Source of the DNA: Sulfurimonas sp. HSL-1716
GTDB taxonomy: Bacteria; Campylobacterota; Campylobacteria; Campylobacterales; Sulfurimonadaceae
NCBI RefSeq assembly: GCF_039645975.1
Contig: NZ_CP147918.1
Span: forward strand, 1,488,001 to 1,552,000
Length of the DNA: 64,000 nt
Direction: 5' to 3'
Shown here: in pieces, positions 35,446-63,235 of the stretch
Layout: every line of letters begins with the position of its first letter
How positions within the stretch are numbered: the first letter of the stretch is position 1
Notes under the pieces: generated by a model
What the model saw: the letters and a program-made list of their open reading frames with translations, nothing else
Told to the model about the DNA's origin: nothing
The model's database searches: none
Made by a program: the position numbers and the translations under genes

Positions 35446-35475
35446 TTTGTTATATCAATTTAATAGTTGGACAGT

Positions 35476-37107
35476 ATGTATAACCAGATAAATATATCAA
35501 ACAGCGAAGATTGTCAGGCGTGTGCCCTTACATTTGCATACAACGAGATCAAGATCCTTTACGATATCGCGGTGATGCTCTCAAGCAGTACCGACGTGAA
35601 CGAAAGCATAGAAAAAGGGATGCGTCTGCTAAAACGCAACTCGTATCTGGAGCGCTGCAGCCTCTTTCTGCTTTCCGAGGACAAAAACACGGTAGAACTC
35701 TACACCTCCATAGACACGACGCCCCAACAGCGTAAAATGGCGGTCTACAAGCTGGGAGAAGGCGCTACGGGACTTGCCACGCAGAGCTGCGAACCCGTCG
35801 TCATAGAAAACATCCACAACAACATCAACTATCTCAACAAGATGGGTATCGTAGACACGAAATCGATCTCTTACGTCGCCGTGCCGATCATGCAGGACGA
35901 AGCGCTTTTCGGGGTCATCTCCGCGAACATAAACAAATCTTCCGTGCTGAGTTTTGACGATATCGTGAGGATGCTTACCATCGTGGGTTCGCTCTTTTGC
36001 GGAACACTCGCCATACAAAAAAGGTTCGTACAGGAAAAAGAGAATCTCACCGATCTAAAAACGTACTACAAAGACCAGGTGCTGAGCGAATACAAGTTCG
36101 AGAACATTGTCGGCAACAGTACGAAGATGCAGCATATCTTCAGTCTTTTAGAGACCGTCGCGCCATCGGATGCCACCATCTTGGTGCGCGGTGAGACGGG
36201 AACGGGAAAAGAGCTCATCGCCACGGCGGTGCATAACCTCAGCAAAAGAAAAAACGGCCCCTATATCAAACTCAACTGTGCGGCTATCAGCGAGACGCTT
36301 TTGGAAAGCGAACTTTTCGGACATGAAAAAGGTGCGTTCACCGATGCCAAAGAGATGCGTAAAGGACGTTTTGAGCTGGCCGACGGCGGTACGCTTTTTC
36401 TTGATGAGATAGGCGACATCACGCCCGCACTTCAGGTAAAACTGCTGCGCATCCTTCAAGAGCAGGAGTTCGAGCGCGTTGGCGGAACGAAGACCATCAA
36501 AACAAACGTGCGTCTGGTAGCGGCAACTAACCGCAACTTGGAAAGCATGGTGGCAAAAGGGGAGTTTAGAGAGGATCTGTTCTACCGTCTCAACGTCATC
36601 CCCGTCAACCTTCCTCCGCTCAGAGAGCGCTACGAAGATGTCAAGCTCCTTATAGAACACTATCTGCACAAGTTCATGAAAGAGCACCGCAAGAACATGA
36701 GCTTCAGTAAAGCAGCACTCGAAGTTCTGCAAGACTATCCGTGGCCGGGAAATATCCGCGAGCTTCAAAACACGATGGAGAGGATCGTGCTGATTTGTCC
36801 AGAGGGCGTCATAATGCCCGAGATGCTAAACCATGTCCTGCCCTTTAACTACCAAAAGCTTTACATGGAGCCCGCACCCGTAAATACGCCTCCCGAGCCG
36901 ATTTTGGAAGAAAAATCGCTGCAACCGAACCCTCAGCCAAAAAAATCGGCACCGGTCACAAAGATGAACCTGCAGGAGCTGGAAAAAGAAGCCATACTTC
37001 AAGCCCTCATAGACAACCGCGGCATCCAGACAAAAGCCGCTGCGCAGCTGGGCATGACGGCAAGACAGATAGGCTACAAGATTAAGAAATACGATATCGA
37101 CCTCTAA
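35476..37107 (+). CDS. nifA: NifA, sigma54-dependent activator of nif genes
   Basis: A 543-aa enhancer-binding protein from the ATG at 35476. GAF domain (about 20-170), AAA+ domain with Walker A GETGTGKE (about 238-245), the sigma54-contact GAFTDA loop (about 285-290) and Walker [12 protein letters not shown], then a Fis-type helix-turn-helix at the end ([20 protein letters not shown]). Between AAA+ and DNA-binding domains is a proline-rich linker without cysteines, so the Cys-based oxygen switch of rhizobial NifA is missing. No nifL is visible. It should activate the sigma54-type promoters listed in this window. Confidence 0.92.
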
Positions 37108-39574: not shown

Positions 39575-41236
39575 TCATCCTTTTAGTTTTTTAAGATAAC
39601 TTTTTATCTTGTATAAAAAATTATCCAATATGTCGTTTTCAAAGGAGACCCTTAAAAACCCGTCTCCCAAATTCCTGACGCATGAGGAGACCCCATAGTA
39701 TTTGTCGTCACGCTCCAAAAAATCGGTACGGTAGTGAACGCCTCTGCTCTCCTCCCTTTTCATTGCCGAGAGGATCATCGCTTCTGCCACATAAAGCGCA
39801 TTTCTGAACTCCAAGATGGAGGAGAGTTCCACATTGTTATGCCTCTCTTTGTTCACGCAGTGCAGACCGTACTGGCATTTCATCAGGTAATGCACATACT
39901 CAAAAGCGTCTATGAGGCTCTCTTCGCTTCGGTACACGCCTACATTTTTAAACAAAGACTCTCCGAGATTTTTTTTCATCGCGTTTATGTTGAAATGGCT
40001 GTCCGCATCGAGTATGAGATTTATCCGCCTGTACTCTTTGTTGACCTGAGAAAAATCTATGGGGAGAAAATCCCGCCTTTTTGCCCTGCGCGCGGCTTCC
40101 ACTCCGGCTATGCGGCCGAAGTAAGCAGCCTCAAGAAGCGAGTTGCCTCCCAGCCTGTTTGCCCCGTGTACTCCCGTCGCCGCGCACTCGCCGCATGCGA
40201 AGATCCCGGCGATATCCGTAGAGGTGTCTCCTCTTGTCCAGATACCGCCGATGGTGTAATGCGCCGAAGGGGTTATCTCCAAAAGCTCCGTTTTTATGTC
40301 TATTCCCGCACTGTTTAGCGCCATCTTCTGAGTCGAAGGCAGTCTTGTTTCGATAGTTTCAGAGGAGAGATGCCTGAAATCCAGATAGACTTTATGTCCG
40401 GCCTGTATATGCTCCAAAATGGCGCGCGAAAGCTTGTCTCTTGTCTGAAGTTCGTCCGTAAAACGCATCCCCGTCTCATCGACTATGTAAGCACCCTCGC
40501 CGCGGGCCGCTTCGCTTATGAGAGAACCGTTTTTTAGCGTGGTCGGATGAAACTGCACGAACTCGAGGTTTGAGAGTCTCATGCCCGCACGTAACGCTGC
40601 TGCGATGACGTCTCCAGAACTCTCCTGCGGGTTTGTCGAGTGACCTCTGTATATCCCCGCAAATCCTCCTCCCGCAAGTACAAGCGATTTGCAGGCAAAC
40701 GCCGTTACATGCGAATCCTCACGGTGCAGCAGCGTGATGCCCGAGAGTTTGTCGTCGAACTTTGTGATGTTTAAAAGCTGATGATTGCCCAGTATCTCCA
40801 CACCTTCTTTGCGGCACTGCATAAGCAGGGTCTGCACTATCGCGCTTCCCGTACGGTCGGCTATGAAACATGTCCTGTTCGCACTGGCTCCGCCGAAAGG
40901 GCGCTGTTGTATGTTGCCGTTTGCATCGCAGTCGAACTTTACTCCCATCTCCATAAGCTCGCGCACGATGTTTACCGCCTCTTTGCACATGTCGTTGACG
41001 TTCACTTCGTTGGAGATCCCGTCCGCTCCGCCGACAGTGTCTTTTATATGTCTATATACCGAATCATGCTCGTTTTGTCCTGTGACGGCGTTCATGCCGC
41101 CTGAGGCCACGGCGGAGTTCGAGCGGAAGGGATTGCTTTTGGTGATGACCACGACGCTGCACCCCGCCCTTTTTGCATACAAGGCGGCAAAAAGTCCCGA
41201 TATGCCGCTTCCCACGACTATGACATCATAAAGCAT
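39575..41236 (-). CDS. FAD-dependent oxidoreductase, fumarate reductase/L-aspartate oxidase family
   Basis: A 553-aa flavoprotein. FAD-binding VVGSGISGLFAALYAKRAG at the start, SNSAVASGGMNAV loop, the catalytic-domain FGGASANRTCFIADRTG segment, RGEGAYIVDETGMRF, and the second FAD contact GANRLGGNSLLEAAYFGRIAG. Family covers succinate/fumarate and L-aspartate chemistry; there is no iron-sulfur or membrane partner next to it, so L-aspartate oxidase-like or soluble fumarate-reductase-like activity is possible. Its place between an aldo/keto reductase and nifT in a sigma54-driven operon suggests a nitrogen-fixation role. Confidence 0.78.
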   Translation of the reverse strand: MLYDVIVVGSGISGLFAALYAKRAGCSVVVITKSNPFRSNSAVASGGMNAVTGQNEHDSVYRHIKDTVGGADGISNEVNVNDMCKEAVNIVRELMEMGVKFDCDANGNIQQRPFGGASANRTCFIADRTGSAIVQTLLMQCRKEGVEILGNHQLLNITKFDDKLSGITLLHREDSHVTAFACKSLVLAGGGFAGIYRGHSTNPQESSGDVIAAALRAGMRLSNLEFVQFHPTTLKNGSLISEAARGEGAYIVDETGMRFTDELQTRDKLSRAILEHIQAGHKVYLDFRHLSSETIETRLPSTQKMALNSAGIDIKTELLEITPSAHYTIGGIWTRGDTSTDIAGIFACGECAATGVHGANRLGGNSLLEAAYFGRIAGVEAARRAKRRDFLPIDFSQVNKEYRRINLILDADSHFNINAMKKNLGESLFKNVGVYRSEESLIDAFEYVHYLMKCQYGLHCVNKERHNNVELSSILEFRNALYVAEAMILSAMKREESRGVHYRTDFLERDDKYYGVSSCVRNLGDGFLRVSFENDILDNFLYKIKSYLKKLKG

Positions 41237-42957: not shown

Positions 42958-42973
42958 CACTCTTTTTAGAGTG
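42958..42973. terminator. Hairpin between convergent PII-like gene and rpoN
   Basis: CACTCT, loop TTTT, AGAGTG: a perfect 6-bp stem overlapping the rpoN stop. Probably a shared 3'-end structure. Confidence 0.45.
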
Positions 42974-44234
42974 TCGCGAGTTTATACAAGAACTGCCTCT
43001 CTTTAAAAGCCGGAATATCCAGTTCCTGACGATATTTTGCGATAGAACGCCTCACCATTTTGATATGAAACCTTTTTTCTATCTCCTCATGCAGATGCTT
43101 GTCGCTGAGAGGGTTTTCCTTCTCTTCGCACTCCACAAGTCTTTTGAGAAAACTTTTTATCTCCGAAGTGGAGACGTTGTCTATGGCGTTTGAGAAAAAA
43201 TCCTTAAACGCAAAGACGCCGCGGCTGCACTCCAGATATTTGTCGCTGATGGCGCGCGAGACGGTGGACTCGTTAAAACCAAGCTCGTCGGCTACGTCCT
43301 GAAGACGAAGCGGCATCAGTTTGCCTCCCATGAAAAAGCTGTACTGTTTTTCGATAAGCACCAAAGCGATGTTATAAAGCGTCGCTTTTCGAAGGTCTAG
43401 CAGTTTCACAAGCTCTCTTGCCTCTTTGAACTTCTGTTTTGCGAAGTTGTCGTATTTGTCTATCTGGTTGACTATGAGATCGGGATAAAACGCATGGTTG
43501 ATGCGAATGACAAACTCATCGCCCTTTGACTCGATGAACATGTCCGGCAGAATGTTCTCTTCAGCTTCCATGTAGGCGATCGCCGGAGGATTGTTGAGTT
43601 TTTTTATCATCTCTTTTGCGTCGTGTATGCGCGGATGGTTTATGAACTTCTCCATCTTGTCAAACTGCGTGATCATAGCACTGAGCAGGATGCTAAGCTC
43701 ATCATCAAGATCATAGTCGCCCAGCTGAAACAAAAACGACTCTTTGTAATCGACCGCACCCACGCCGACAGGTTCCAGATAGGCAAAACGCTGACGGACC
43801 TGCTCTACTTTGTAGGCGTCTACGCCGCACTGAAGAGCTATCTCTTTGACATCTCCCTCGAAGTACCCTTCGTCGTTTATATAGTAGATGATCTGTTTTG
43901 CTATCTTTTGCGATATGGGCGTAGGGAAAAGCGGAGCGCTTATCTGGTTGTCAAGTTTCTCATAAAGCGACTCCGTCGCCACGCTCATCCACTCTATCTC
44001 GTCGCTTGCCGTGTTTGATACTCTGTTTTGGTACTCCATAAAAGCGGTGTGAGATCTGTTGCTGGAACTCTCTGAAACCTCAAAACCCGATTGTACTTCC
44101 AGACACGGGTTTTCATTTGTGATGACCTGCAGATGTTTGTCCAGGTCACTCAAAGAACATTGTAAAAGAGGCAGCCAGGTCTGCATGGAAAGTCTAGGCA
44201 GTTGTTTTTGTTTTAAGGAAAATTGCTGTTTCAT
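42966..44234 (-). CDS. rpoN: RNA polymerase sigma54 factor
   Basis: A 422-aa RpoN. Region I is glutamine/leucine-rich at the N-terminus (QFSLKQKQLPRLSMQTWLPLLQC). The core-binding part is in the middle, the HTH is LQDVADELGFNESTVSRAIS and the C-terminal RpoN box is RRSIAKYRQELDIPAF, near the canonical ARRTVAKYRE. It directs polymerase to -24/-12 promoters, of which several occur here, including one upstream of this gene itself. Location inside the nif cluster rather than elsewhere is worth noting. Confidence 0.94.
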   Translation of the reverse strand: MKQQFSLKQKQLPRLSMQTWLPLLQCSLSDLDKHLQVITNENPCLEVQSGFEVSESSSNRSHTAFMEYQNRVSNTASDEIEWMSVATESLYEKLDNQISAPLFPTPISQKIAKQIIYYINDEGYFEGDVKEIALQCGVDAYKVEQVRQRFAYLEPVGVGAVDYKESFLFQLGDYDLDDELSILLSAMITQFDKMEKFINHPRIHDAKEMIKKLNNPPAIAYMEAEENILPDMFIESKGDEFVIRINHAFYPDLIVNQIDKYDNFAKQKFKEARELVKLLDLRKATLYNIALVLIEKQYSFFMGGKLMPLRLQDVADELGFNESTVSRAISDKYLECSRGVFAFKDFFSNAIDNVSTSEIKSFLKRLVECEEKENPLSDKHLHEEIEKRFHIKMVRRSIAKYRQELDIPAFKERQFLYKLATL

Positions 44235-45544: not shown

Positions 45545-46063
45545 TTAGATTCCCATCTCCCGTTTGATCTGTGCTGCCCACTCCGCGATTCTTTTTGCCG
45601 TAAGCTCCTTTTGGTTTATATCGTCTATCGCAAGTCCGCAGAACTTTCCGCCTCTTTCAGCATACGAATATTTGTAAGAGTACCCACTCGTAGAGGTATG
45701 ACCGAAATCGGTGTCTGCACCGAGATTGGAGAAGATATCTTTCATCTTTCCCAAAGCCGTGACAAACTCTTCAGGGTGGCTTTTTTGATCGCCCGCACCG
45801 AAAAATGCCGCTTTTTTGCCGCTGAAGTCAGGCTCCTCGTTTTGCATCTCGTAAAGCGGATCTACCCAGTCTCGCTGAGGATCGCCCTGTCCCCAAGTGG
45901 ATGAACCGATGAGCAGAACGTCAAACTCTTCAAACTGCTCCAGATCATCGTAATCTTCTTCCATATTGATAAGTTCCGCATCCTCCAAGAGTCCCTCCAG
46001 CATCTGCGCCGCACTCAGTGTGACTCCGCCGCTGCTTCCTACAAATATGCCTACTTTTGCCAT
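45545..46063 (-). CDS. nifF: Flavodoxin (NifF-type)
   Basis: A 172-aa flavodoxin from the ATG at 46063, which follows AAGGAGAT. FMN-binding GIFVGSSGGVTLSAA, the SSTWGQGDPQRDW loop and FFGAGDQKSHPE segment show it is a long-chain flavodoxin. It donates low-potential electrons to NifH. The phosphate loop has SSGG instead of the usual S/T-x-T-G-N-T. Last gene of nifE-N-X-DUF269-nifF. Confidence 0.88.
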   Translation of the reverse strand: MAKVGIFVGSSGGVTLSAAQMLEGLLEDAELINMEEDYDDLEQFEEFDVLLIGSSTWGQGDPQRDWVDPLYEMQNEEPDFSGKKAAFFGAGDQKSHPEEFVTALGKMKDIFSNLGADTDFGHTSTSGYSYKYSYAERGGKFCGLAIDDINQKELTAKRIAEWAAQIKREMGI

Positions 46064-46073
46064 TTTTATCTCC

Positions 46074-46517
46074 TTATATACATGGTTTAAATTTATTGTA
46101 GATCTCAAATGAAGCGTTTAAATACTTCTCGCCCTCTTCGTAGAGCTTTTCCAAAGTCCTGAAACTAAAACGGTGAGCGTCTTTGAAATATTTATCCACC
46201 AGCACTATTTTGTCTGCTATGACGATACAGCGTCCGAATCCTTCATGACTCATCTCCATCACGACATTGCACATGACTCCCGTTTTGCGTTCGAACTGAA
46301 GCGCGACGGCTTTAAATATCATCTTGATCTCGCCGATAAGCATCTCGTCTATATCAGCGATGATGGGGATCTGTTTGAGATCCTCTTTTGTCTTGACATA
46401 TTTTTTAGCGAGCAGCTCCTCGTCGCTCATTTTTGCCCAGCTGCCAAACTGATCCGTCGCTCTTAGCTGACGTATCAGCTCCTGTGTAAACGCATTAAAC
46501 TCCATTACTTCACTCAT
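46074..46517 (-). CDS. NifX-associated DUF269 protein
   Basis: A 147-aa protein with the DUF269 pattern: FTQELIRQLRATDQFGSWA, ADIDEMLIGEIKMIFKAVAL and GRCIVIADKIVLVDKYFKDA (RFSFRTLEKLYEEG after it). Members always sit after nifX and are thought to help FeMo-cofactor assembly, mechanism unknown. AAGGAG precedes the ATG. Confidence 0.88.
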   Translation of the reverse strand: MSEVMEFNAFTQELIRQLRATDQFGSWAKMSDEELLAKKYVKTKEDLKQIPIIADIDEMLIGEIKMIFKAVALQFERKTGVMCNVVMEMSHEGFGRCIVIADKIVLVDKYFKDAHRFSFRTLEKLYEEGEKYLNASFEIYNKFKPCI

Positions 46518-46527
46518 CTTTTTCTCC

Positions 46528-46983
46528 TTATTCTACCGTCCAGCGCTCCAGGCGCGGGTCGTTTTTTGTCTGTATGTTCATAGCTTTTTTAACCCAAGGC
46601 GGAGGATTGTTCTTTAGCATGACGACCAGCTCTTTTAAAATATCTTCGATCGCTCGGGGTTCTTGAACTTTCATTGGGTTTATGCCGCTGCGGATCACTT
46701 TGGCCGCCGCCGTTCCGCCGATGGATTCGCAGTACATGATGTTGATCCCTTTGAGCGCTTTGACCTTAAAATCGGTCTTGTCGTCGCCCTCCATATCTTC
46801 CGTGTCCGTTTTGACGACTTCGCTCAGCTCAAAACCCTCTTTTGAGACTTTATAGACGACGAACTCTTTGGCACCGCCGAAGTGCGCGTTGACACTCTGC
46901 ATATCTTTTGTGGCAAATGCCACTTTTATCGCGTTTTCTAAAGGACTGCTTCCCTCGACAGTTATTTTTGTACTTTCACCCAT
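46528..46983 (-). CDS. nifX: NifX, FeMo-cofactor precursor carrier
   Basis: A 151-aa NifX: KVAFATKDMQSVNAHFGGA at the start of the cofactor-binding domain, then CESIGGTAAAKVIRSGINPM and PRAIEDILKELVVML. It binds NifB-co and FeMo-co intermediates. The gap of about 100 nt to nifN contains a TGACTC-GAAA-GAGTCA hairpin. Confidence 0.9.
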   Translation of the reverse strand: MGESTKITVEGSSPLENAIKVAFATKDMQSVNAHFGGAKEFVVYKVSKEGFELSEVVKTDTEDMEGDDKTDFKVKALKGINIMYCESIGGTAAAKVIRSGINPMKVQEPRAIEDILKELVVMLKNNPPPWVKKAMNIQTKNDPRLERWTVE

Positions 46984-47017
46984 GATGCTTTACCTTTTTA
47001 TTTAATTTAATCGCAAT

Positions 47018-47032
47018 CCGAGCAAAGCCCGG
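47018..47032. other. GC-rich hairpin in the nifN-nifX gap
   Basis: CCGAGCAAAGCCCGG can fold with an AAA loop and one mismatch. A very similar element (GGAGCAAAGCC) occurs in the nifH-nifD spacer at 61698-61717. Confidence 0.4.
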
Positions 47033-47065
47033 CTTACTTTCGCTAGCCGCTAAGGCACTGAAGCT

Positions 47066-47081
47066 TGACTCTTTCGAGTCA
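47066..47081 (-). other. Tetraloop hairpin in the nifN-nifX gap
   Basis: Minus strand TGACTC-GAAA-GAGTCA: a perfect 6-bp stem with a GAAA tetraloop, just after the nifN stop. Probably processing or mRNA stabilisation rather than termination (no T-run). Confidence 0.5.
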
Positions 47082-47087
47082 GAACTA

Positions 47088-48404
47088 TTATGTATAATGC
47101 TTCACTTCACGAAGTTTATTTGCAACTTCAAAAAGAAAATAGGTGCTTCCTTCATAAAGCTGATCGTTTTTAAGCTGGTTGCCCAGCTCTTCATAGTTTG
47201 GAAACCCTCTTAGGATCAAACCCGTGTGTTTTTTTTGTGAGTGCAATATCCGTTCTGCATGAAAGTTGCCGATGACGAGGTCGGCGTCTTTAAAGTATTC
47301 TTGTGCGTCTTCAAGGTCGCCGACAAAGACGTTTTTTGCTTTTATCGTTTTTAAAACCGGACTGTAAACGGTCGCAATCACCGCGTTTACGGTGCCTCCT
47401 GCGCTTTGAAGCGTTTCGCATATGCCCGCGCACATATCGGGCTCGCCGGTGATGACGAAAGTTGACGAGCCGATGAGAAAATGGCTGTCGAGCATAGCAT
47501 CTTGAAGTCTTCCTCTCCAGCGTTTTAACAGCGGAGTCGGATCGATCTGTCTGATTTTCATCAATGAAGCGACAAAATTGTCGTTCATAGAGAGTCCCAT
47601 GAGATGATCGAAATGCAGATGCGTTATGTTCGGATTCTTTTTTAAAAGTGCTTCGGCAGCGATCTTCATCGAACTGCCCAGAGTGATGACGGTCGAACAA
47701 CTTGCAAGCTCTCTGATATCCTCAATACCGATAGCACCCGTGCCGAGTTTTCCCTGCCCATCGCTGAGACAGCCGTCAAGAGAAGTGGACAGATCGGGAA
47801 GAGCCAGGGTATGAAAACCGAAACTTTCACAGCACTCTTTTACTTTTTCTATTTCCGCCGGCTGTATGCTTACATGCGGAAGCAGCAGAAGCTTGTTTGG
47901 TTTTACATCCTCTACAGCCACTGTGTGCTGCTGTATCAGCGCCTTTGCAGTAAGAGCCCATCCGCTCTCCATACCGCCTTCAAAATCAGGTGTGTTCACA
48001 TAGCAGTAGGGTATCTCCACATGCGTGCCTATGCTTCTTACGTCATCGCCTTTTGTCTCCGTGAGCCCCGTCGTATGCAGCCCGATAAGTTCAGGCTTCA
48101 TGGAAGAGTTCTTTTGGGTGATGTTCTCGATCGACATCAAAACGGAATAATCTCCGCCGTCTAAAACCGCCGTTATGTCACTTACGGATGTATTGTACAT
48201 GGCGATGGGTTCGTTAAAATGGCGTGTAAAGAATACCTTTGTGTACGAGGCGCATCCTTGCGATGCATGCATCAGCGGAAGGCAGTTCCTTATCCCCATA
48301 AATGCAAGTGCCGCACCCATAGGCTGAGAGTGTTTTATAGGGTTTACCTGAAGCGGTTTGTGTTCGTGTCTGCTTAGCTCTATATTTTTTTGTGCTTCCA
48401 TCAT
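47088..48404 (-). CDS. nifN: Nitrogenase cofactor scaffold NifN
   Basis: A 438-aa NifK paralogue started at the ATG that overlaps the nifE stop (start codon at 48404). Features: LQVNPIKHSQPMGAALAF, MHASQGCASYTKVFFTRHFNEP and a central Rossmann-like series of domains. With NifE it makes the scaffold on which FeMo-cofactor is completed before transfer to NifD. Confidence 0.92.
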   Translation of the reverse strand: MMEAQKNIELSRHEHKPLQVNPIKHSQPMGAALAFMGIRNCLPLMHASQGCASYTKVFFTRHFNEPIAMYNTSVSDITAVLDGGDYSVLMSIENITQKNSSMKPELIGLHTTGLTETKGDDVRSIGTHVEIPYCYVNTPDFEGGMESGWALTAKALIQQHTVAVEDVKPNKLLLLPHVSIQPAEIEKVKECCESFGFHTLALPDLSTSLDGCLSDGQGKLGTGAIGIEDIRELASCSTVITLGSSMKIAAEALLKKNPNITHLHFDHLMGLSMNDNFVASLMKIRQIDPTPLLKRWRGRLQDAMLDSHFLIGSSTFVITGEPDMCAGICETLQSAGGTVNAVIATVYSPVLKTIKAKNVFVGDLEDAQEYFKDADLVIGNFHAERILHSQKKHTGLILRGFPNYEELGNQLKNDQLYEGSTYFLFEVANKLREVKHYT

Positions 48405-49762
48405 TCGGCCTCCCACGGCGCTTTTTTAGATACGTTTGCAAAGACCGGGTTGTTAAACGCATGTTTGAGGTCCTCTGCAAGATTGAGCAGTCCGCCGTAA
48501 CCGCCGTAGCTCACTTTTTTCTCCTGATTCACGTCGATGAACGATATCTTTTTCTTGATGGCGGTGTAGAGGCTTCGGCCTCCCGCAAGCAGTATGTGCG
48601 CACCTCTTTCATCAATCGCTTTTGCCTGTTCGCTTGCGGGGGCTTTCATGAGCAGTCCGTTCTCGCCGAGGTACTCTCTTGCTTTTGCGATGTCGTCTTC
48701 GGTGGATTTGCGGATGGAAGTGGCTACCACTTCTATGCCGAGGTCTTGAAGTCCCGATGCGATGGACCAAGCCTTGTTTCCACCCGTATTGAGCACCGCT
48801 TTTTTACCTGCAAAAAGTGCCTTGTACTCCTGCAAAGCCTCTTCAAGTTTCGCCTCTTCTTGGGCTATCACCTCTTTTGCTTTTTTGATGAGCGCCTCAT
48901 CACCCAGAGCTTTTACTATCTCCATGATCGCAAAGGTCGTATCGCGTTTTCCGTAGAACGATACGGATACCCAAGGGATACCGTAGTTTTCCTGCATCTT
49001 TCTGCAAAGCGTGATAAGCGATTTCGCACAGACGATGACATTGAGTTTCGCACGGTGCGCACACCTTATGTCTCCCACGCGTCCGTCACCGCTGAGCGAG
49101 CTGAGCACCCTGATGCCTATCTTTTCAAAGATGGGAAGATACTGCCACATGTCGCCCGTTACGTTGTAATCTCCTATGAGGTTGATGTCATAGGGCGTCG
49201 TAAATTCCGGTTCTTTCGTGCCTATGAGATTTTCGAGTACCGCTTCGCCCGCAAGACGCGAACCGAGGTTCTTTCCGCCTACAAAACCGGGTGCATGCAC
49301 GGGAACTACGGGGATGCCGTGCTTCTCGCTTGCCAGTTTGCATGTCATATCGATATCATCGCCCACCAGCGCGGTCACACAAGTGGAGTAGACAAAGACC
49401 GCTTCTGGTTTGTAGTTTTGCATAATATAGTCGATGGAATCGGCGAGTCTTTTATCACCTCCGAATATAACGTCGTTTGTAGTGATGCCCGTGGTAAAAC
49501 CCATCACGGTATGGTCGCGCCCCTCATAAGAGGTAAGCGTCTCCCTCGTCTCCCATGAAGCTCCCAGACAGGTCTGAGGGCCGTGGACTAAGTGGATTGC
49601 ATCGGCGTAGGGAAAAAGGGAGATCTGCGCACCGTCAAATGCGCATCCTCCCGCTGCGAGTCCCGGCTTTGGTTTGTCGCAGCCTTCACCCTTTTTTTTA
49701 TCTTTGTTGTGCGAGCAGGCACTTTCGTTCATCAGCTCTTTTATCTTTGCACGGTTGACCAT
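48401..49762 (-). CDS. nifE: Nitrogenase cofactor scaffold NifE
   Basis: A 453-aa NifD paralogue from the ATG at 49762, which has AAGGAG 7 nt upstream. CAFDGAQISLFPYADAIHLVHG with the P-cluster-like Cys, STCVTALVGDDID and the substrate-binding Cys and His regions toward the C-terminus are present. The N-terminal stretch has a Cys-His-Lys-rich insert (SACSHNKDKKKGEGC). First gene of nifE-N-X-DUF269-nifF. Confidence 0.92.
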   Translation of the reverse strand: MVNRAKIKELMNESACSHNKDKKKGEGCDKPKPGLAAGGCAFDGAQISLFPYADAIHLVHGPQTCLGASWETRETLTSYEGRDHTVMGFTTGITTNDVIFGGDKRLADSIDYIMQNYKPEAVFVYSTCVTALVGDDIDMTCKLASEKHGIPVVPVHAPGFVGGKNLGSRLAGEAVLENLIGTKEPEFTTPYDINLIGDYNVTGDMWQYLPIFEKIGIRVLSSLSGDGRVGDIRCAHRAKLNVIVCAKSLITLCRKMQENYGIPWVSVSFYGKRDTTFAIMEIVKALGDEALIKKAKEVIAQEEAKLEEALQEYKALFAGKKAVLNTGGNKAWSIASGLQDLGIEVVATSIRKSTEDDIAKAREYLGENGLLMKAPASEQAKAIDERGAHILLAGGRSLYTAIKKKISFIDVNQEKKVSYGGYGGLLNLAEDLKHAFNNPVFANVSKKAPWEAE

Positions 49763-49796
49763 AAAACACTCCTTTGGAGTCAATTACTTCACCTTG

Positions 49797-53049: not shown

Positions 53050-53700
53050 TTACAGTCTTAAATCATGTACATTCAAAATTTGTTTTATAGCTTTTTTTTC
53101 ACTTTCGGAAATTTTATTGTTAGTAAGGTCGAGTATGCTCAAGAACTCTAAATGCGGTATACAGGTTGGCAAAGTTGAAATATTATTTTTATTTAAATAC
53201 AGCGAACTTAAAGATGTACATTCTTTCAATTCATATGGAAGAGTCAAAAGTTGACAGTTTTGAACATCTATAGATTGAATACTTTGTAGTTTTTCTAAAC
53301 TGCTTGGCAATTCTTTTAATAAATTATTAGAAATTACTAAAGTTTTTAATGCTGCGCAATCTCCTATACTTTTAGGAATTTGAACTAATTTGTTATTCCT
53401 TAAATCTAATTTTTGCATTTTTGTTAGCTGCCCTATACTATCGGGAAGAGTTTTAATTTCATTACGTGCCAGATCTAGTTCGGCAAGAGTCGAACCAAGT
53501 TTCTTTATCTCGTTTGGAACGGTGGTTATTTTAGTATTGGTAAATCTTAAAGATTCGACATGAGGAAGTTCAAATATCCACAACGGTATATCTGTAAAAT
53601 CTCCACCTGAAAATGAAAATGAGGTTTCATCCACAATACTTTTATCTGAAATGCTTTGTTTGAGCTGTTGCGCTTCGGCTAAGGACTTTATTTCAACCAT
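53050..53700 (-). CDS. Leucine-rich repeat protein
   Basis: A 216-aa protein with about six repeats of roughly 23 residues of the form LxxLxLxxNxLxxLPxxIxxLxx, e.g. LAELDLARNEIKTLPDSIGQ and LQSIQSIDVQNCQLLTLPYE, ending NKISESEKKAIKQIL. Expected horseshoe solenoid for protein binding. No catalytic domain; partner unknown. It is convergent with the HAD gene and does not look co-regulated with nif genes. The fusion at 63417-64000 also begins with such a repeat. Confidence 0.82.
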   Translation of the reverse strand: MVEIKSLAEAQQLKQSISDKSIVDETSFSFSGGDFTDIPLWIFELPHVESLRFTNTKITTVPNEIKKLGSTLAELDLARNEIKTLPDSIGQLTKMQKLDLRNNKLVQIPKSIGDCAALKTLVISNNLLKELPSSLEKLQSIQSIDVQNCQLLTLPYELKECTSLSSLYLNKNNISTLPTCIPHLEFLSILDLTNNKISESEKKAIKQILNVHDLRL

Positions 53701-53789: not shown

Positions 53790-54638
53790 TCAATACCTCT
53801 CAAAAAGCTCCTGTATCTTAACCGTGTCGTGCATCGCGGTATAAAGCGGCGTATCCTCTTTTCTTATCGACTCTTCAAGGGTCGCACCGCCGTTTTTGTT
53901 TTGGTATATCACACCCAGAGGCATCGGCATCGTCTCAAAAGCTTTGCCGAGCGCCGCATTGAAATCACTGCTGTCGTAGTTCTCGTCAAGCGCATAGGTG
54001 TTGTCTTTGAACCAGTGGTAGGTGTTTGTTTTGTTGAAAGTGACGCATGGCTGAAAGATATCGACAAGTGCGTAGCCGTGATGCTTGAATGCGGCTTTGA
54101 GCACCTCTTTTGCATGAACGGCATTGCCGATACTCACGCGCGAGACAAATCCCGCTCTTAGAGAAAGCGCCACGGCAAGAGGGTTAAAAGGTTCGTTTAC
54201 CACACCGTTCACCTGTACTTTCGTTTCAAAACCTTTTTGGCTTGTAGGCGAAGCCTGCCCTTTTGTCAGCCCGTAGACCATGTTGTTATGTACTATGTGG
54301 ACGATATCGACGTTTCGTCTCACCGCGTGGATGAAGTGGTTTCCGCCCTCGCCGTACATATCTCCGTCACCGCCTTCGGCGACGACGTTTAGATGCGGAT
54401 TTGCGACTTTTATGGCCGTAGCCACGGGTACCGCCCTGCCATGCAGGACTCCAAACATGTTGGCATCGACATAATAAGGTGCTTTTGCCGCTTGTCCGAT
54501 GCCTGAGACTATGACGGTATTTGTTTTATCCGCCTGCAGCTCTTCGAGTACCTCTTTTATAAGTTTTAAGATACCGAAGTTCCCGCATCCCGGACACCAT
54601 GCAACATCGACATTTTCTCTGTCAAAAAGATGGCTCAT
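53790..54638 (-). CDS. 2-oxoacid:ferredoxin oxidoreductase, beta subunit
   Basis: A 282-aa thiamine-diphosphate protein. CPGCGNFGILK near residue 15 carries cluster ligands, VVSGIGQAAKAPYYVD and the ThDP/Mg motif EGGDGDMYGEGGNHF (near 88-100), plus NNMVYGLTKGQASPTS. Together with the gamma-alpha fusion encoded upstream it forms an oxidoreductase that decarboxylates a 2-oxoacid and reduces ferredoxin. Start overlaps the upstream stop by 4 nt. The substrate (pyruvate versus 2-oxoglutarate) cannot be decided. Confidence 0.9.
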   Translation of the reverse strand: MSHLFDRENVDVAWCPGCGNFGILKLIKEVLEELQADKTNTVIVSGIGQAAKAPYYVDANMFGVLHGRAVPVATAIKVANPHLNVVAEGGDGDMYGEGGNHFIHAVRRNVDIVHIVHNNMVYGLTKGQASPTSQKGFETKVQVNGVVNEPFNPLAVALSLRAGFVSRVSIGNAVHAKEVLKAAFKHHGYALVDIFQPCVTFNKTNTYHWFKDNTYALDENYDSSDFNAALGKAFETMPMPLGVIYQNKNGGATLEESIRKEDTPLYTAMHDTVKIQELFERY

Positions 54639-57181
54639 GACAGCTCCTTTACAGATTTTTCTATCATACTTTTCAGCTGATCGGCGAAGAAACTAAAACC
54701 GTTGGACTGCAATATCTTCTCATCCACTTTGACACCATAAAGTTTGAGCTGGTCTGCAAACGCACCGTCCGCATTGTTTTCCACGACTATCTTATATTTG
54801 TAGCTGTCTAAAACGCTCAGCTGTTCTCTGCTTAGAGGATGCACCCATGTAAAGTGGACTTGGACAAGACGCGGATCGTCAAGTCTTTGCAGGGCTTCGG
54901 CTATGGCGCCTTTACTCGATCCCCAGCCGATAACGGCTATGTCCCCTTCGCCGATGCATACGGGAGAGAGGGCTTCGCTTGTGAGCGCTTCGCTTTTTCG
55001 CGCACGTTTTTCTATCATCTGCTCCCGCATTTTATAATCCTCGGTTATCTGTCCGCGTTCGTCATGTTCATCGCCGACCGCACACACGAGACCTTCGCCA
55101 AAGCCCGGTACACTCCGCGGACTTATACCGCTTTCCGTATCCGCATAACGTTCATATTCTTTAGTACTTTTTATGATATATCTGCGCTGTTCGTAGGAGG
55201 AAAAATCGATATCGCCTATCATACTCATAGAGTCCGCCAAATACTGGTCGCTCAACACGACGACGGGTATCTGGTACTTGTCCGCCAGCTCAAAGGCAAG
55301 ATATCCGCATTCGATGCACTCCTGCAGCGATCCCGGAGCGAGCACCGCGCGCGCAAAGGGTCCGTGCCCCGAATAGATCGCCATGTTCAAGTCTCCCTGC
55401 TCGCTTCGTGTGGGTAGTCCCGTCGCAGGACCGGGACGCTGAGCGAGGTAGATGACCGCAGGGGTCTCGGTCATGCCGCTGAGACTCAGCGCTTCGCCCA
55501 TCAGAGCGAATCCTCCGCCTGAAGTGGATGTCAAAGCGCGCGCACCGCCGTACCAGCCGCCAAGCACCATGGTCAAAGAGGCTATCTCGTCTTCGCTTTG
55601 TTCCACTGCAATATCAAAGTGTTTTGACATCGATGCCATAAAGTTGAGTACTCCCGTCGAAGGAGACATCGGATATGCAGTCATCATGTTGCATCCGCCA
55701 GAAAGAAAGCCGAATCCGCATGCGGTCGTACCGTCCATAAGGTGCAGTTTTTCTACGGCTTGGATGTCTGCTTTTGGAAGTGGGGGAAGCAGCAGAGATC
55801 TGATATCGCGCCCCGTTTCATATCCCGCTTGGGCCGCTTCTATGTTTGCACCCTCGTCTTTAAAGTGTTTTTCGACCGTCTGAAGAAGAGCGGGCTCATC
55901 GACATGGAGCACTCCGAAAAGCAAACCTGCCATATAGGTGTTCGCATAGCGTACGTCGCCGAACTTCTTGGCTCTCTCTTTCATCGCAACGGCGACGATA
56001 TTTGAACCCTTTTCATTGAGGCTTTCATCCGCAAAGACAACGGTGTCTTTTTTGTATCTGCCTTTCATGTGCTCCAGCGCAAGCTCGTCAAGCGCCACGG
56101 CGATATCGACTTCCCAGCATGGAGCCTGCACCGGAAAAGAAGCGATACGGATAAGCGTCGTATTGCTTCCCCCGCGTACGCGGGACATAAACTCTTTTGT
56201 CGAAAATACATAATATCCGCTTCTCTTAAAAGCGTCACTGAGTATCTTTTCCAGCGTATCTATGCCAAGACCCGCGGCACCCCCTATCAAGATAGAGATA
56301 TCGGCTTGCTCACTGCTGCTCACACCTCTCTCTTTTTGCTCCGATATCTTTGCCGAAGAGGTCGGAGTAGACATAGAAAGGGGAGCTTCATACTTCCTGT
56401 CTAAAGGAGAAGCACCTCCCATAAAAAACTTCGGTTCGTTCATATCCAAAGAAACTGTCTGCATATTCTCTTCTCCTATGTTGCCCCAGCTGATCTTTCC
56501 GCCGTAATACCCCAGTACAATGACGTTTAGGCCTGTAAACAAGATGATCGCGTGGTAAATTATCCCAAGAAGCGAATAGTCATAGACGACGTTTGTATTT
56601 TCAAGATAGATACCTATGCCGACTATGCCCAAGATCAGCGTCACTACCGAAACGACGATCTTTACCATAAAAGCTCTGTGGGTCGAAAGGTTGTAGTTTA
56701 TCCACCAGCTGAGCAGTCCCGGTATCATGGCAAAAAATCCCATCACGGTAGCGACAAAAAATGAATAAAACACGCCTACCGCATAATCTTCGCGCGGAGT
56801 ATCCAAAAAGACTATATCTAGTCCCGCGGCAAAAAGATGCAGGGCTATTGGGAAATGAACGATCATGGGATGCGGATGGAATTTTTTATAGAGAAGTCTA
56901 AGACGGTTTTTCATATCTTCAAGAGGAGGAGTCTGCGTCTTTAAGAGAGGCTCTTCTTCATCCACTTCTCCGACTACCGGAAAGTTTTTAAAGACTTCGT
57001 CTCCGTGCGGCGCGCCGGAAAGTTCGGATGTCAGATCCATCCCGGCACTATGGGAGGCTTCATGTTCGCCCTCTTGCCAAAAGGGGCTCTTTGATACGTC
57101 GTATACAACATTTTTGTAAGCGACGTAAGCCTTAGAACTATTTTTACCGTCATACGATTTCAGCTCATCTAGCGTCATCAT
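54635..57181 (-). CDS. Cytochrome b5-like/membrane/2-oxoacid:ferredoxin oxidoreductase gamma-alpha fusion
   Basis: An 848-aa fusion with three parts. Residues 1-75 form a cytochrome b5-like haem domain (GEHEASHSAGMDLTSEL, His40 and His44). Residues about 97-230 form a DUF2231-like domain of four membrane helices, opening FHPHPMIVHFPIALHLFAAG. Residues about 293-480 are the gamma domain (GGAAGLGIDTLEKILSDAF, with RGGSNTTLIR), and about 485-848 the alpha domain (AYPMSPSTGVLNFMASMS, EQSEDEIASLTMVLGGWYGG). The oxidoreductase is thereby tethered to the membrane next to a haem domain. It lies between sod and the beta gene, all in one operon. Confidence 0.88.
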   Translation of the reverse strand: MMTLDELKSYDGKNSSKAYVAYKNVVYDVSKSPFWQEGEHEASHSAGMDLTSELSGAPHGDEVFKNFPVVGEVDEEEPLLKTQTPPLEDMKNRLRLLYKKFHPHPMIVHFPIALHLFAAGLDIVFLDTPREDYAVGVFYSFFVATVMGFFAMIPGLLSWWINYNLSTHRAFMVKIVVSVVTLILGIVGIGIYLENTNVVYDYSLLGIIYHAIILFTGLNVIVLGYYGGKISWGNIGEENMQTVSLDMNEPKFFMGGASPLDRKYEAPLSMSTPTSSAKISEQKERGVSSSEQADISILIGGAAGLGIDTLEKILSDAFKRSGYYVFSTKEFMSRVRGGSNTTLIRIASFPVQAPCWEVDIAVALDELALEHMKGRYKKDTVVFADESLNEKGSNIVAVAMKERAKKFGDVRYANTYMAGLLFGVLHVDEPALLQTVEKHFKDEGANIEAAQAGYETGRDIRSLLLPPLPKADIQAVEKLHLMDGTTACGFGFLSGGCNMMTAYPMSPSTGVLNFMASMSKHFDIAVEQSEDEIASLTMVLGGWYGGARALTSTSGGGFALMGEALSLSGMTETPAVIYLAQRPGPATGLPTRSEQGDLNMAIYSGHGPFARAVLAPGSLQECIECGYLAFELADKYQIPVVVLSDQYLADSMSMIGDIDFSSYEQRRYIIKSTKEYERYADTESGISPRSVPGFGEGLVCAVGDEHDERGQITEDYKMREQMIEKRARKSEALTSEALSPVCIGEGDIAVIGWGSSKGAIAEALQRLDDPRLVQVHFTWVHPLSREQLSVLDSYKYKIVVENNADGAFADQLKLYGVKVDEKILQSNGFSFFADQLKSMIEKSVKELS

Positions 57182-57202: not shown

Positions 57203-57883
57203 TTATGACTGTGTACGCTCGTTTTCCTGCATGACATCGACATAATCACACACTTCGTTGTTATCGTTGCACGGCTGAGCATACCCTGAGATCGGATCGT
57301 CTTGAGCATCTGCGAGATTATCCGATACGAACGTCCAGTTTATCAGCTTCCACCAGTTCTCAAGATAATCCGCTCTGCCGTTGCGATAATCGATATAGTA
57401 TGCATGTTCCCAGACATCGCAGGTAAGCAGAGGTGTCTCGTTATGGCGTATCGGATTGTCCGCATTGGAGAACTCGGAGATGGCCAGTCTGCCGTCTTTT
57501 GTCAAAACAAGCCAAACCCATCCCGAACCAAACAGTGCGGCGGCTTTGCCCAAAAACATCTTTTTAAACTCTTCTTGCGAGCCGAAAGTGTTTTGTATCA
57601 TGTCAGAAAGCGATACAGAACATGTACTAGGCTCTTTAGAGAGGCCATGCCAGTAAAAATTGTGGTTAAACACCTGTGCGGCATTGTTGAAGATCGCGCC
57701 GTTTGAATATCTTACTATATACTCCAAAGGCTTACCCGCATAATCACTTCCTTCGATAAGCCCATTGAGCTTATTGACATAACCTGCATGATGTTTACCG
57801 TAATGATAGCTTATCGTTTCAGAGGAAATATATGGTTCTAATGCTGCTTGGCTATAGGGCAGTGACATTAATTCAAACTTCAT
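57203..57883 (-). CDS. sodB: Fe/Mn superoxide dismutase with Cys-containing tail
   Basis: A 226-aa dismutase. Metal ligands: HYGKHHAGYV (His26 region), NHNFYWHGL (His), and CDVWEHAYYIDYRN (Asp and His near 166-171). The FGSGWVWLVL and the DVWEHAYY motifs favour the Fe type. About 35 residues extend past the usual end with two Cys (PCNDNNEVCDY). It begins the sod-OFOR operon, and the following gene starts 21 nt later. SOD could shield oxygen-sensitive oxidoreductase and nitrogenase. Confidence 0.88.
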   Translation of the reverse strand: MKFELMSLPYSQAALEPYISSETISYHYGKHHAGYVNKLNGLIEGSDYAGKPLEYIVRYSNGAIFNNAAQVFNHNFYWHGLSKEPSTCSVSLSDMIQNTFGSQEEFKKMFLGKAAALFGSGWVWLVLTKDGRLAISEFSNADNPIRHNETPLLTCDVWEHAYYIDYRNGRADYLENWWKLINWTFVSDNLADAQDDPISGYAQPCNDNNEVCDYVDVMQENERTQS

Positions 57884-58648: not shown

Positions 58649-60190
58649 TCAGCGGACCAAGTCGAAAAAGTAGTCGGTCGAAGCGATGTTTTTGGTCTCT
58701 TCGTCCAACTGATCAAGGACTTTGTTCGTGATCCAAGTAAGCAGGTTCAACGCTCCGTCGTATCCTGCAATAGAATATCTATGCAGATGGTGACGATCAA
58801 ATATCGGGAATCCGATATAGATCAGCGGTGTACCTGTATCACGCATAAGCTCTTTGCCGTAAGAGTTGCCTATCATGAAATCGACCGGCTCTGTGAACAG
58901 CAGCGAACGCATATGCCACAGGTCTTTACCTGCCCAGACATGACAGCTTGCGTGCGCCGGCGAAGTATCAAGCAATGCTCTCATCTCCTCTTCCCACCCG
59001 CGCGGTGCGTTGTGACACAGTACATGAGTCGGCTCGGCACCCATCTCCAAAAGGAACGAGATCATACCGATCAAAAAGTCAGGATCGCCCCATATAGCGA
59101 ATTTTTTACCGTGCATATACGGATATGAATCCTGCATCGCATCAACAAGACGGCCGCGTTCGATCTTTAGCTTTTCAGGTACCTCTTTTCCTGTAAGTTC
59201 TGCGAGTTTCATCACGAACTCATCCGTGCCTTTAAGACCGATCGGATTGGAAAATCCGCCTTGATGTTTCCATCTTTTGTGAACCATTTTCATGGTCTTG
59301 ACGGTCGCATACTTTTGTAAAGATATCGTAGCTGTAGAATTGACGGCATCTTTTGCATCGGCTATCGGCGTACCGCCGGCAAACATACTGTACTCGCCCG
59401 CAGGCATATCCCATTGATCGGAGTGATCACCCAGCATTAAGTATGAAGCACCGAATGCTTCTGCTATGCTTTTAACGGAACGGATCGAACCGATATATGT
59501 TTCAAAACCTGGAATGATATTGATACGCTCTTTTTTCTCTTCAGATTTTTCTGATAATTGATCCAAGATACCGTGCATCATGTTGTCATAACCCGTGATA
59601 TGGCTGCCCGTAAATGACGGAGTATGCGCATACGGGATCGGGAAACCGGCCGGTAGGAACTCACCGCCGTCTTCATCTTTCGCCGCCGTTGCAAACGCGT
59701 TTAGGTCATCGCCGATGACCTCTGCCATACATGTAGTAGAGACTGCGATCATCTCAGGTTTGTAAAGCGCCGCACAGTTTTTCAGACCGTCTTTCATATT
59801 TGCAAGACCGCCGAAAACCGCCGCATCTTCTGTCATAGAGTCAGAAACACAAGGAGTGGGTTCTTTAAAGTGTTTCGTGAAATATGAACGAAAATACGCG
59901 ACACATCCGTGGCTGCCATGAACGTAAGGCATCGTATTCTCAAATCCAAGCGCTACCATAACCGCCCCTAGAGGCTGACATGCTTTTGCAGGGTTTACGG
60001 TGATGGCTTCACGGGCGAGGTTTTTCTCACGGTAATCCCATGATTTCGTCCACTCGGCTACCTCTTTGACTTTCTCGGGATCGATAGCGCCCATGCCGCC
60101 TTCGAACTCTTTTTTGTTGTTTAAAACCTCTTTATATTCAGGACGTTGAAATAGTTTTTGACCATTTACAATTTTTTCTATCTCTTGCAT
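58649..60190 (-). CDS. nifK: Nitrogenase MoFe protein beta subunit
   Basis: A 513-aa NifK started at the ATG whose first base is the last base of the nifD stop (TAATG at 60190), giving [14 protein letters not shown]-cluster ligands are in AKACQPLGAVMVAL, GSHGCVAYFRSYFTKHF and VSTTCMAEVIGDDL. Forms the alpha2beta2 MoFe protein with NifD. Its C-terminus extends about as in proteobacterial Mo-NifK. Last gene of nifH-(115 aa)-nifD-nifK. Confidence 0.96.
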   Translation of the reverse strand: MQEIEKIVNGQKLFQRPEYKEVLNNKKEFEGGMGAIDPEKVKEVAEWTKSWDYREKNLAREAITVNPAKACQPLGAVMVALGFENTMPYVHGSHGCVAYFRSYFTKHFKEPTPCVSDSMTEDAAVFGGLANMKDGLKNCAALYKPEMIAVSTTCMAEVIGDDLNAFATAAKDEDGGEFLPAGFPIPYAHTPSFTGSHITGYDNMMHGILDQLSEKSEEKKERINIIPGFETYIGSIRSVKSIAEAFGASYLMLGDHSDQWDMPAGEYSMFAGGTPIADAKDAVNSTATISLQKYATVKTMKMVHKRWKHQGGFSNPIGLKGTDEFVMKLAELTGKEVPEKLKIERGRLVDAMQDSYPYMHGKKFAIWGDPDFLIGMISFLLEMGAEPTHVLCHNAPRGWEEEMRALLDTSPAHASCHVWAGKDLWHMRSLLFTEPVDFMIGNSYGKELMRDTGTPLIYIGFPIFDRHHLHRYSIAGYDGALNLLTWITNKVLDQLDEETKNIASTDYFFDLVR

Positions 60191-61662
60191 TACGCTTCTC
60201 CTTCTTTTTCCCATGGTGCTTTTGTGTGAGCCCATACCGGAGAGTTTATCGCCAGATCCATGTCTTGTGCAAAGATCGCAAAACCGTCATATCCGTGGTA
60301 AGGACCGCTATAATCCCAAGAGTGCATCTGACGATACGGCAGACCCATTTTTTGGAACACATATTTCTCTTTGATACCAGATGCGACCAGATCCGGCTGC
60401 AGTTTTTTGACAAACGCCTCGAGCTCATACTCGTTAACGTCGTCATAGATCACGGTCGATCTGAATATCTCGTCTTTTGTTCGTTTATAATCATCGTCAT
60501 GAGCAAACTCGTAACCCGTACCGATCACTTCCATACCAAGGTCTTCATAAGCGCCGATAACGTGGCGAGGACGCAGACCGCCGACGAACAGCATGACCTG
60601 CTTGCCCTCTAAGCGCGGACGGTATTTGTTGACCACTGCATCTACGAGCGGTTGATATTTAGCGATGACCTCTTCGCATTTTTTCTGAATGCTCTCGTCA
60701 AAGAATGCGGCTATCTTGCGCAGAGATTTAATCGTCTGGCTCGGTCCGAAGAAGTTATACTCTATCCAAGGTATCCCGTACTCTTTTTCCATGTGGCGGG
60801 AAATATAGTTCATAGAACGGTAGCAGTGAAGCAGGTTCAGTTTCACTTTTGTCGTTGCCGCCATCTCTTTTAATGTCGCATCTCCCGACCATTGAGCCAC
60901 AACGCGCAGCCCCATCTCTTCAAGCAGGATACGGCTCGACCATGCATCACCGCCTATGTTGTAATCCCCGATGATCGCGACATCATAAGGAGTCTCTTTT
61001 ATCTCTTCTCCAAGCGTCTGCGGTTTTGCCTCAAACACATAATCGCGCACGGTGTCGTTTGCTATATGATGCCCGAGTGATTGGGAAACTCCGCGGAAAC
61101 CTTCGCAGTTCACCGGGATGACCGTTTTGCCCGTTTGTTTCGTATACTGTTTGGACGTCGCGTTGATATCGTCGCCTATCAGACCGATCGGACACTCTGA
61201 TTGAACAGATATACCGTTGTTCAAAGGGAAAAGCTCGTCTATCTCTTTAAAACAAACGGCAAGTTTCTTGTCTCCGCCGAAAACGATGTCTTTTTCTTGA
61301 AAATCGGAACTAAAGTTCATCGTCACAAACGTATCAACGCCCGTCGTGCCTATGTAATAGTTACGACGGCCCGCACGGCTGTATTGTCCGCAACCGATAG
61401 GACCGTGGCTGATATGGATCATATCTTTTACCGGACCCCAGACGACCCCTTTACTCCCTGCATACGCACAACCGCGCTGACTCATAACGCCCGGAACGGT
61501 CTTTTTGTTTGAACGGACGTTTCCGCATGTTTTTTGACTTTCATCTTCAGGACCGCCGACACCCAGGTGTTTCGCACGGTTCTTGGCAGCTTTTGCAGGA
61601 TAAGCTTTTAAAACTTCTTCTACGGCTGCTTTTTGTCTAGCTTCCAATGATTCTGGACCCAT
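60190..61662 (-). CDS. nifD: Nitrogenase MoFe protein alpha subunit
   Basis: A 490-aa NifD from the ATG at 61662 (GAGGAG 7 nt upstream); an earlier in-frame ATG at 61686 lacks such a site. P-cluster Cys in [25 protein letters not shown] and [12 protein letters not shown]; FeMo-cofactor Cys in [15 protein letters not shown]; FeMo-co His in [13 protein letters not shown]. These are Mo-type features, not VnfD/AnfD. nifD starts about 195 nt after the 115-aa ORF that separates it from nifH. Confidence 0.96.
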
Positions 61663-61697
61663 TTCATTCTCCTCTATTTTTATCATTTTAAAACGCT

Positions 61698-62299: not shown

Positions 62300-63235
<936 letters not shown>

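Follow-up and report, generated by a model that had tools for sequence, protein, structure and literature searches.

We identified a single 848-aa open reading frame in Sulfurimonas sp. HSL-1716 that joins a cytochrome-b5-like domain, a four-helix membrane segment of the DUF2231 type, and the gamma and alpha domains of a two-subunit 2-oxoacid:acceptor oxidoreductase (OFOR) in one chain (Table 1; all coordinates refer to the 64,000-nt stretch of this genome that was analyzed, hereafter the window). This architecture is real, conserved in Campylobacterota, and, as far as searched, undescribed: no paper describing the fusion was found, and the only mention of DUF2231 found in the literature was in a database paper. 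OFORs are oxygen-sensitive enzymes that provide low-potential electrons or carry out CO2 fixation, and they are regarded as soluble and ferredoxin-linked. The two-subunit OFOR is itself a known kind of enzyme; the new part is the b5-DUF2231 membrane fusion, through which electrons may reach the membrane, and not solely a soluble carrier, in one branch of sulfur-oxidizing bacteria. The reading we favor, with a probability of roughly 0.4, is that a membrane-held OFOR oxidizes 2-oxoacids and that its electrons leave through the b5 and DUF2231 domains to the quinone pool. If true, bacteria at the oxic-anoxic boundary would have a direct path for electrons from oxoacids to the membrane.

All Pfam domains of the fusion and its partner beta subunit exceeded their gathering cut-offs, including Cyt-b5 (PF00173; 28.2 bits against a gathering score of 23.7) and DUF2231 (PF09990; 40.8 against 26.4). 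Residues 294 to 838 matched TIGR03710, the gamma-alpha type of 2-oxoacid:acceptor oxidoreductase, with 566 bits (cut-off, 482.75). The frame and its coordinates are exactly those proposed in a first-pass annotation made from the sequence, and the domain-database search it had called for (Pfam and NCBIfam) identified b5, DUF2231, gamma, and alpha in one chain. The four membrane helices that it had read in the DUF2231 segment are supported by hydropathy and by a moderate AlphaFold model (pLDDT 65.6; helices 105-127, 131-162, 165-194, and 204-231); a Foldseek search with the DUF2231 part gave no confident match. For the b5-like domain, the best Foldseek matches were the archaeal b5 structures 6vz6 (Methanococcoides; phmmer, 1.3e-19) and 6nzx (Hadesarchaea), with 46% identity over 73 columns and with His40, His44, and His59 matched; the solved chains have about 78 residues and, unlike the fusion, lack membrane and OFOR domains. 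The attachment of the OFOR to the membrane and a candidate for a b5-type heme are both well supported by sequence. To that extent the earlier proposal that the tether may place electron production at the membrane beside a heme is sustained; as a whole, it is partly supported.

Table 1. Features of the fusion-beta unit and of its surroundings in the window
Feature	Positions	Strand	Basis
FldA-like flavodoxin (45545-46108), nifX, nifN, nifE; other nif-cluster flank	45545..49783	-	NCBIfam
OFOR beta subunit, 282 aa; only cysteines Cys15, Cys18, Cys198; Gln49 at third cluster-Cys site	53790..54638	-	Pfam, NCBIfam, alignment
Fusion protein, b5-like + DUF2231 + OFOR gamma + alpha	54635..57181	-	ORF, Pfam, NCBIfam
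OFOR alpha domain, Pfam core, residues 493-724	55010..55705	-	Pfam POR_N 172.6 bits, TIGR03710 coverage
OFOR gamma domain, residues 304-455	55817..56272	-	Pfam POR 93.4 bits
Variable linker, residues 233-294	56300..56485	-	Relaxed constraint, pN 0.27-0.38
DUF2231-type four-helix membrane segment, residues 104-232; invariant His104, 109, 115, 210	56486..56872	-	Pfam 40.8 bits, hydropathy, model, conservation
Cytochrome-b5-like domain, residues 3-73; invariant His40, His44, His59	56963..57175	-	Pfam 28.2 bits, phmmer, Foldseek, conservation
Fe/Mn superoxide dismutase, 21 nt upstream of fusion	57203..57883	-	ORF, Pfam
nifK; upstream flank	58649-60235	-	NCBIfam
nifD; upstream flank	60190-61686	-	NCBIfam
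nifH; upstream flank	62300-63205	-	NCBIfam

Single-chain fusions number 22 in the sampled genomes: 19 belong to the family, and a second family accounts for the other three (genomes G392, G417, and G414). In the genomic regions retrieved, 15 single chains, counting the one in the window, could be read at full length, with 45-79% identity to the window protein, and the one-contig genomes with the fusion include G006, G355, G017, G311, G328, and G381. By substitution pattern, pN is far below pS in the b5, DUF2231, gamma, and alpha domains, and only the linker is relaxed; every domain of the fusion is thus under purifying selection. An assembly join or frameshift at residues 245 to 295, named at the outset as what could undo the fusion, was rejected in view of these constrained domains and of the full-length orthologs elsewhere, several of them in one-contig genomes. 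In Sulfuricurvum and G248, b5-DUF2231 and gamma-alpha are separate adjoining genes. In G248, G360, G383, G330, and G410, the b5-DUF2231 gene immediately precedes the gamma-alpha gene and overlaps it by 4 nt, which argues that the parts work together. The module adjoins the gamma-alpha gene in every locus that was read out and is uncut by a contig end. On the gamma-alpha tree, which has a very long outgroup branch and an unsure root, the fused, unfused, and module-less states require at least four changes. Genomes G262 and G277 are nested in fused clades and have kept gamma-alpha-beta while losing b5-DUF2231, which was not found elsewhere in either genome; in G262, a short gamma-alpha start comes immediately after sod. 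The enzyme can therefore work without the module.

A 1185-aa frame in G414 was rejected as a further fusion, since its extra N-terminal residues have no Pfam match and are merely an upstream open stretch. Two loci, L064 (7072-9528) and L027 (8001-10457), which come from contigs of equal length in two collections and thus probably from one assembly, carry a fusion frame broken near residue 356 by pseudogenization or sequencing error. Searches of plasmids (tblastn) gave only partial, b5-length matches, and viral contigs gave none; a scan of genome contigs with a single query sequence, in which other phyla were scarcely covered, returned two loci.

Eight histidines of the fusion are invariant where covered: three in the b5 domain (His40, His44, and His59) and five at or in the membrane segment (His102, just ahead of DUF2231, and His104, His109, His115, and His210). 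The first seven are present in 22/22 sequences, among them the His40-His44 pair that had been picked out in the window, and His210 is present in all 21 sequences covering its position. The HP..HF motif formed by His104 and His109 is general to DUF2231 and occurs in the relatives' other DUF2231 proteins; His115 and His210 are not found in those proteins and mark the subfamily of the fusion. The candidate histidine ligands for heme in the b5 domain are among these invariant residues, and coupling to quinone, one of the two routes first proposed, would fit the invariant membrane histidines.

As first annotated, the fusion gene is followed by a beta gene that overlaps its end by 4 nt. The overlap reads ATGA and is preceded by an AAAGGAG ribosome site. 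The beta subunit carries TPP_enzyme_C and PFO_beta_C domains and matched TIGR02177 with 338.6 bits (cut-off, 261.9). The TPP and substrate residues are retained in the enzyme part, with the TPP motif as GGDGD at position 89 and NN at 118-119. The 2-oxoacid-binding residues of Sulfolobus tokodaii StOFOR, namely, Arg344, Thr349, and Asp468 of alpha and Lys49 and Leu123 of beta (PMC5020499), align with Arg582, Thr587, Asp704, Lys52, and Leu124 here; the position of Thr256 is Ser506. These equivalents suggest a broad 2-oxoacid specificity. Instead of the four cysteines that hold the beta [4Fe-4S] cluster in solved two-subunit OFORs, there are three, with Gln49 at the third site: all 24 betas of the relatives have SGIGQ, in contrast to SGIGC in four solved homologs, and the OorB-type beta of the same genome has SGIGC. 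The fusion does not account for the glutamine, because a clostridial relative's beta also has SGIGQ. For HpdF, a clostridial member of the wider family, a 2026 paper describes a catalytic cluster with three conserved cysteines (PMC13285125), so a three-Cys beta may still be active.

Among the closest known systems, StOFOR1/2 (PDB 5b46-5b48) and the bacterial 6n2n likewise consist of gamma-alpha plus beta, have no ferredoxin domain, keep the substrate residues, and can be aligned to the gamma-alpha part; unlike the fusion, they have no membrane or b5 domain, carry Cys where Gln49 stands in beta, and read YPITP where residues 503-507 here read YPMSP. The model nearest to beta was the clostridial two-subunit OFOR NF008821/PRK11869 (398 bits, below the 438 cut-off). 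A plasmid homolog from Peptoclostridium acidaminophilum shares SGIGQ and YPM[S/T]PST with the unit; the clostridial type lacks b5-DUF2231, and its beta is 57.7% identical over residues 4-159 only. At the Peptoclostridium locus L091, the SGIGQ beta-like frame ends early (188 aa), and a TnpB gene separates it from the alpha gene.

Under the favored quinone route, the b5-DUF2231 module would anchor the two-subunit enzyme to the cytoplasmic side of the inner membrane, with both termini of the fusion predicted to lie inside, and the enzyme would accept a broad range of 2-oxoacids (pyruvate and perhaps 2-oxoglutarate). At TPP, a 2-oxoacid and CoA would yield acyl-CoA and CO2, and the electrons would move to the iron-sulfur cluster of beta, with its three Cys and Gln49, and from there, at least in part, through a b5 heme and the histidine-rich four-helix segment to the quinone pool. 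Oxidation of 2-oxoacids could then proceed independently of ferredoxin turnover in microoxic settings. We counted in favor of this route the domains, the invariant histidines, the co-encoding as one chain or overlapping neighbors, the purifying selection, the StOFOR residue equivalents, and the subfamily mark of His115 and His210. Counted against it were the loss of the module in G262 and G277, the moderate membrane model, and the lack of a confident Foldseek match for DUF2231.

That same loss, with the enzyme intact, would also suit an ordinary OFOR that reduces ferredoxin or flavodoxin and for which the membrane module is just a tether, a reading that we consider unlikely. In this genus, such an enzyme would supply nitrogenase via the flavodoxin of the nif cluster, as in Klebsiella, where NifJ-NifF is a pyruvate:flavodoxin oxidoreductase system feeding nitrogenase. 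The fusion-beta unit does lie between nifX/N/E and nifK/D/H in a cluster that also holds NifA, RpoN, and flavodoxin, an OFOR-plus-flavodoxin arrangement like that of Klebsiella; NifJ, however, is soluble and carries ferredoxin domains in its one chain, in contrast to the two-subunit enzyme here with its nif link limited to one genus. Within the family, nifD was found in 29/40 carriers of the N-terminal module and in 41/188 other genomes (Fisher p = 1.8e-9, uncorrected for kinship or genome size). Against this reading, nifD was not seen in 11 of the 40 carriers, although some of those assemblies are incomplete, and the family has 41 genomes with nifD and without the module. The unit was seen in a nif neighborhood only in this genome (G000) and in G006, where it lies between a nifE-like gene and nifD; G003 shares the alanine dehydrogenase-HAD flank, and its contig ends after sod. 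The constant nif linkage and co-occurrence of a nitrogenase-dedicated, NifJ-like OFOR are thus absent, and the eight invariant histidines would be left unexplained. Sigma-54 sites, considered as a sign of nif control, were rejected, with 57 matches in the window against 52.7 expected (no enrichment). The first-pass suggestion that the enzyme feeds nitrogenase is plausible in this genus, on the strength of the nif cluster with its NifA, RpoN, and flavodoxin; the link by position is local to the genus. The FldA-like flavodoxin beside nifX is a candidate nitrogenase electron donor. The NifA-like activator (35467-37107) scored 515.8 bits, just below the cut-off of 528.85, and RpoN is encoded at 42966-44234.

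In three Sulfuricurvum genomes (L072, 4476-7723; also L071 and L073), the unfused b5-DUF2231 gene comes right after the sole PEP synthase gene of the genome. This points to an anabolic use of pyruvate and away from the quinone route. The enzyme could then be a pyruvate or 2-oxoglutarate synthase working reductively on acyl-CoA and CO2, with the module as an anchor or as an O2 or superoxide guard; we regard this as quite doubtful. These bacteria fix CO2 by the reductive tricarboxylic acid (rTCA) cycle (PMC10066037, PMC4674564), to which such an enzyme would belong. On the other side, separate OorA- and PorA-type homologs are already present in the genome, and PEP synthase is located elsewhere in G000, G006, G355, and G248. 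A b5 heme is, moreover, much too oxidizing to drive carboxylation unaided. A superoxide dismutase (SOD) gene directly upstream on the same strand, correctly noted at the start for the window, recurs in 11 genomes (G000, G006, G003, G007, G002, G017, G328, G311, G381, G262, and G248) and would suit a guarded synthase; in G383 and G330, SOD is nearby on the opposite strand, and none was seen at the remaining loci, some of them cut by contig ends. The adjacency had been taken to fit an O2-sensitive enzyme; although it recurs, it is weak evidence about the enzyme, because this SOD is the only Fe/Mn-SOD of the genome, and for the same reason SOD was rejected as a dedicated partner.

It is improbable that b5-DUF2231 is a redox, heme, or O2 sensor controlling the oxidoreductase without carrying catalytic electrons. 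Heme-binding b5 relatives frequently have noncatalytic roles (e.g., MAPR proteins), and the module is dispensable in G262 and G277; fusion or overlapping genes together with conserved membrane histidines are, however, more typical of a redox chain, and a Pfam search found no signaling domain in the fusion. It is very improbable that the histidine-rich four-helix segment holds transmembrane hemes and lets the proton-motive force drive quinol electrons uphill, so that pyruvate or 2-oxoglutarate is formed from CO2 with no need of ferredoxin, as a direct membrane-driven step of the rTCA cycle.

In other genomes the neighbors of the unit vary, with genes for NfeD, SPFH, and FMN-reductase proteins in G007 and assorted genes at further loci. 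Elsewhere in the window, a 216-aa leucine-rich-repeat protein (53050-53700) is encoded between a HAD hydrolase gene and the beta gene, and an FrdA/SdhA/NadB-like flavoprotein (39575-41236), below the cut-offs of the listed models, lies beside an unnamed 373-aa ORF. In G211, a gene 9 nt upstream of the fusion (L070, 6800-7048) matches HiPIP weakly, with 20.3 bits against a cut-off of 22; in L071 and L073, relatives are encoded downstream on the opposite strand.
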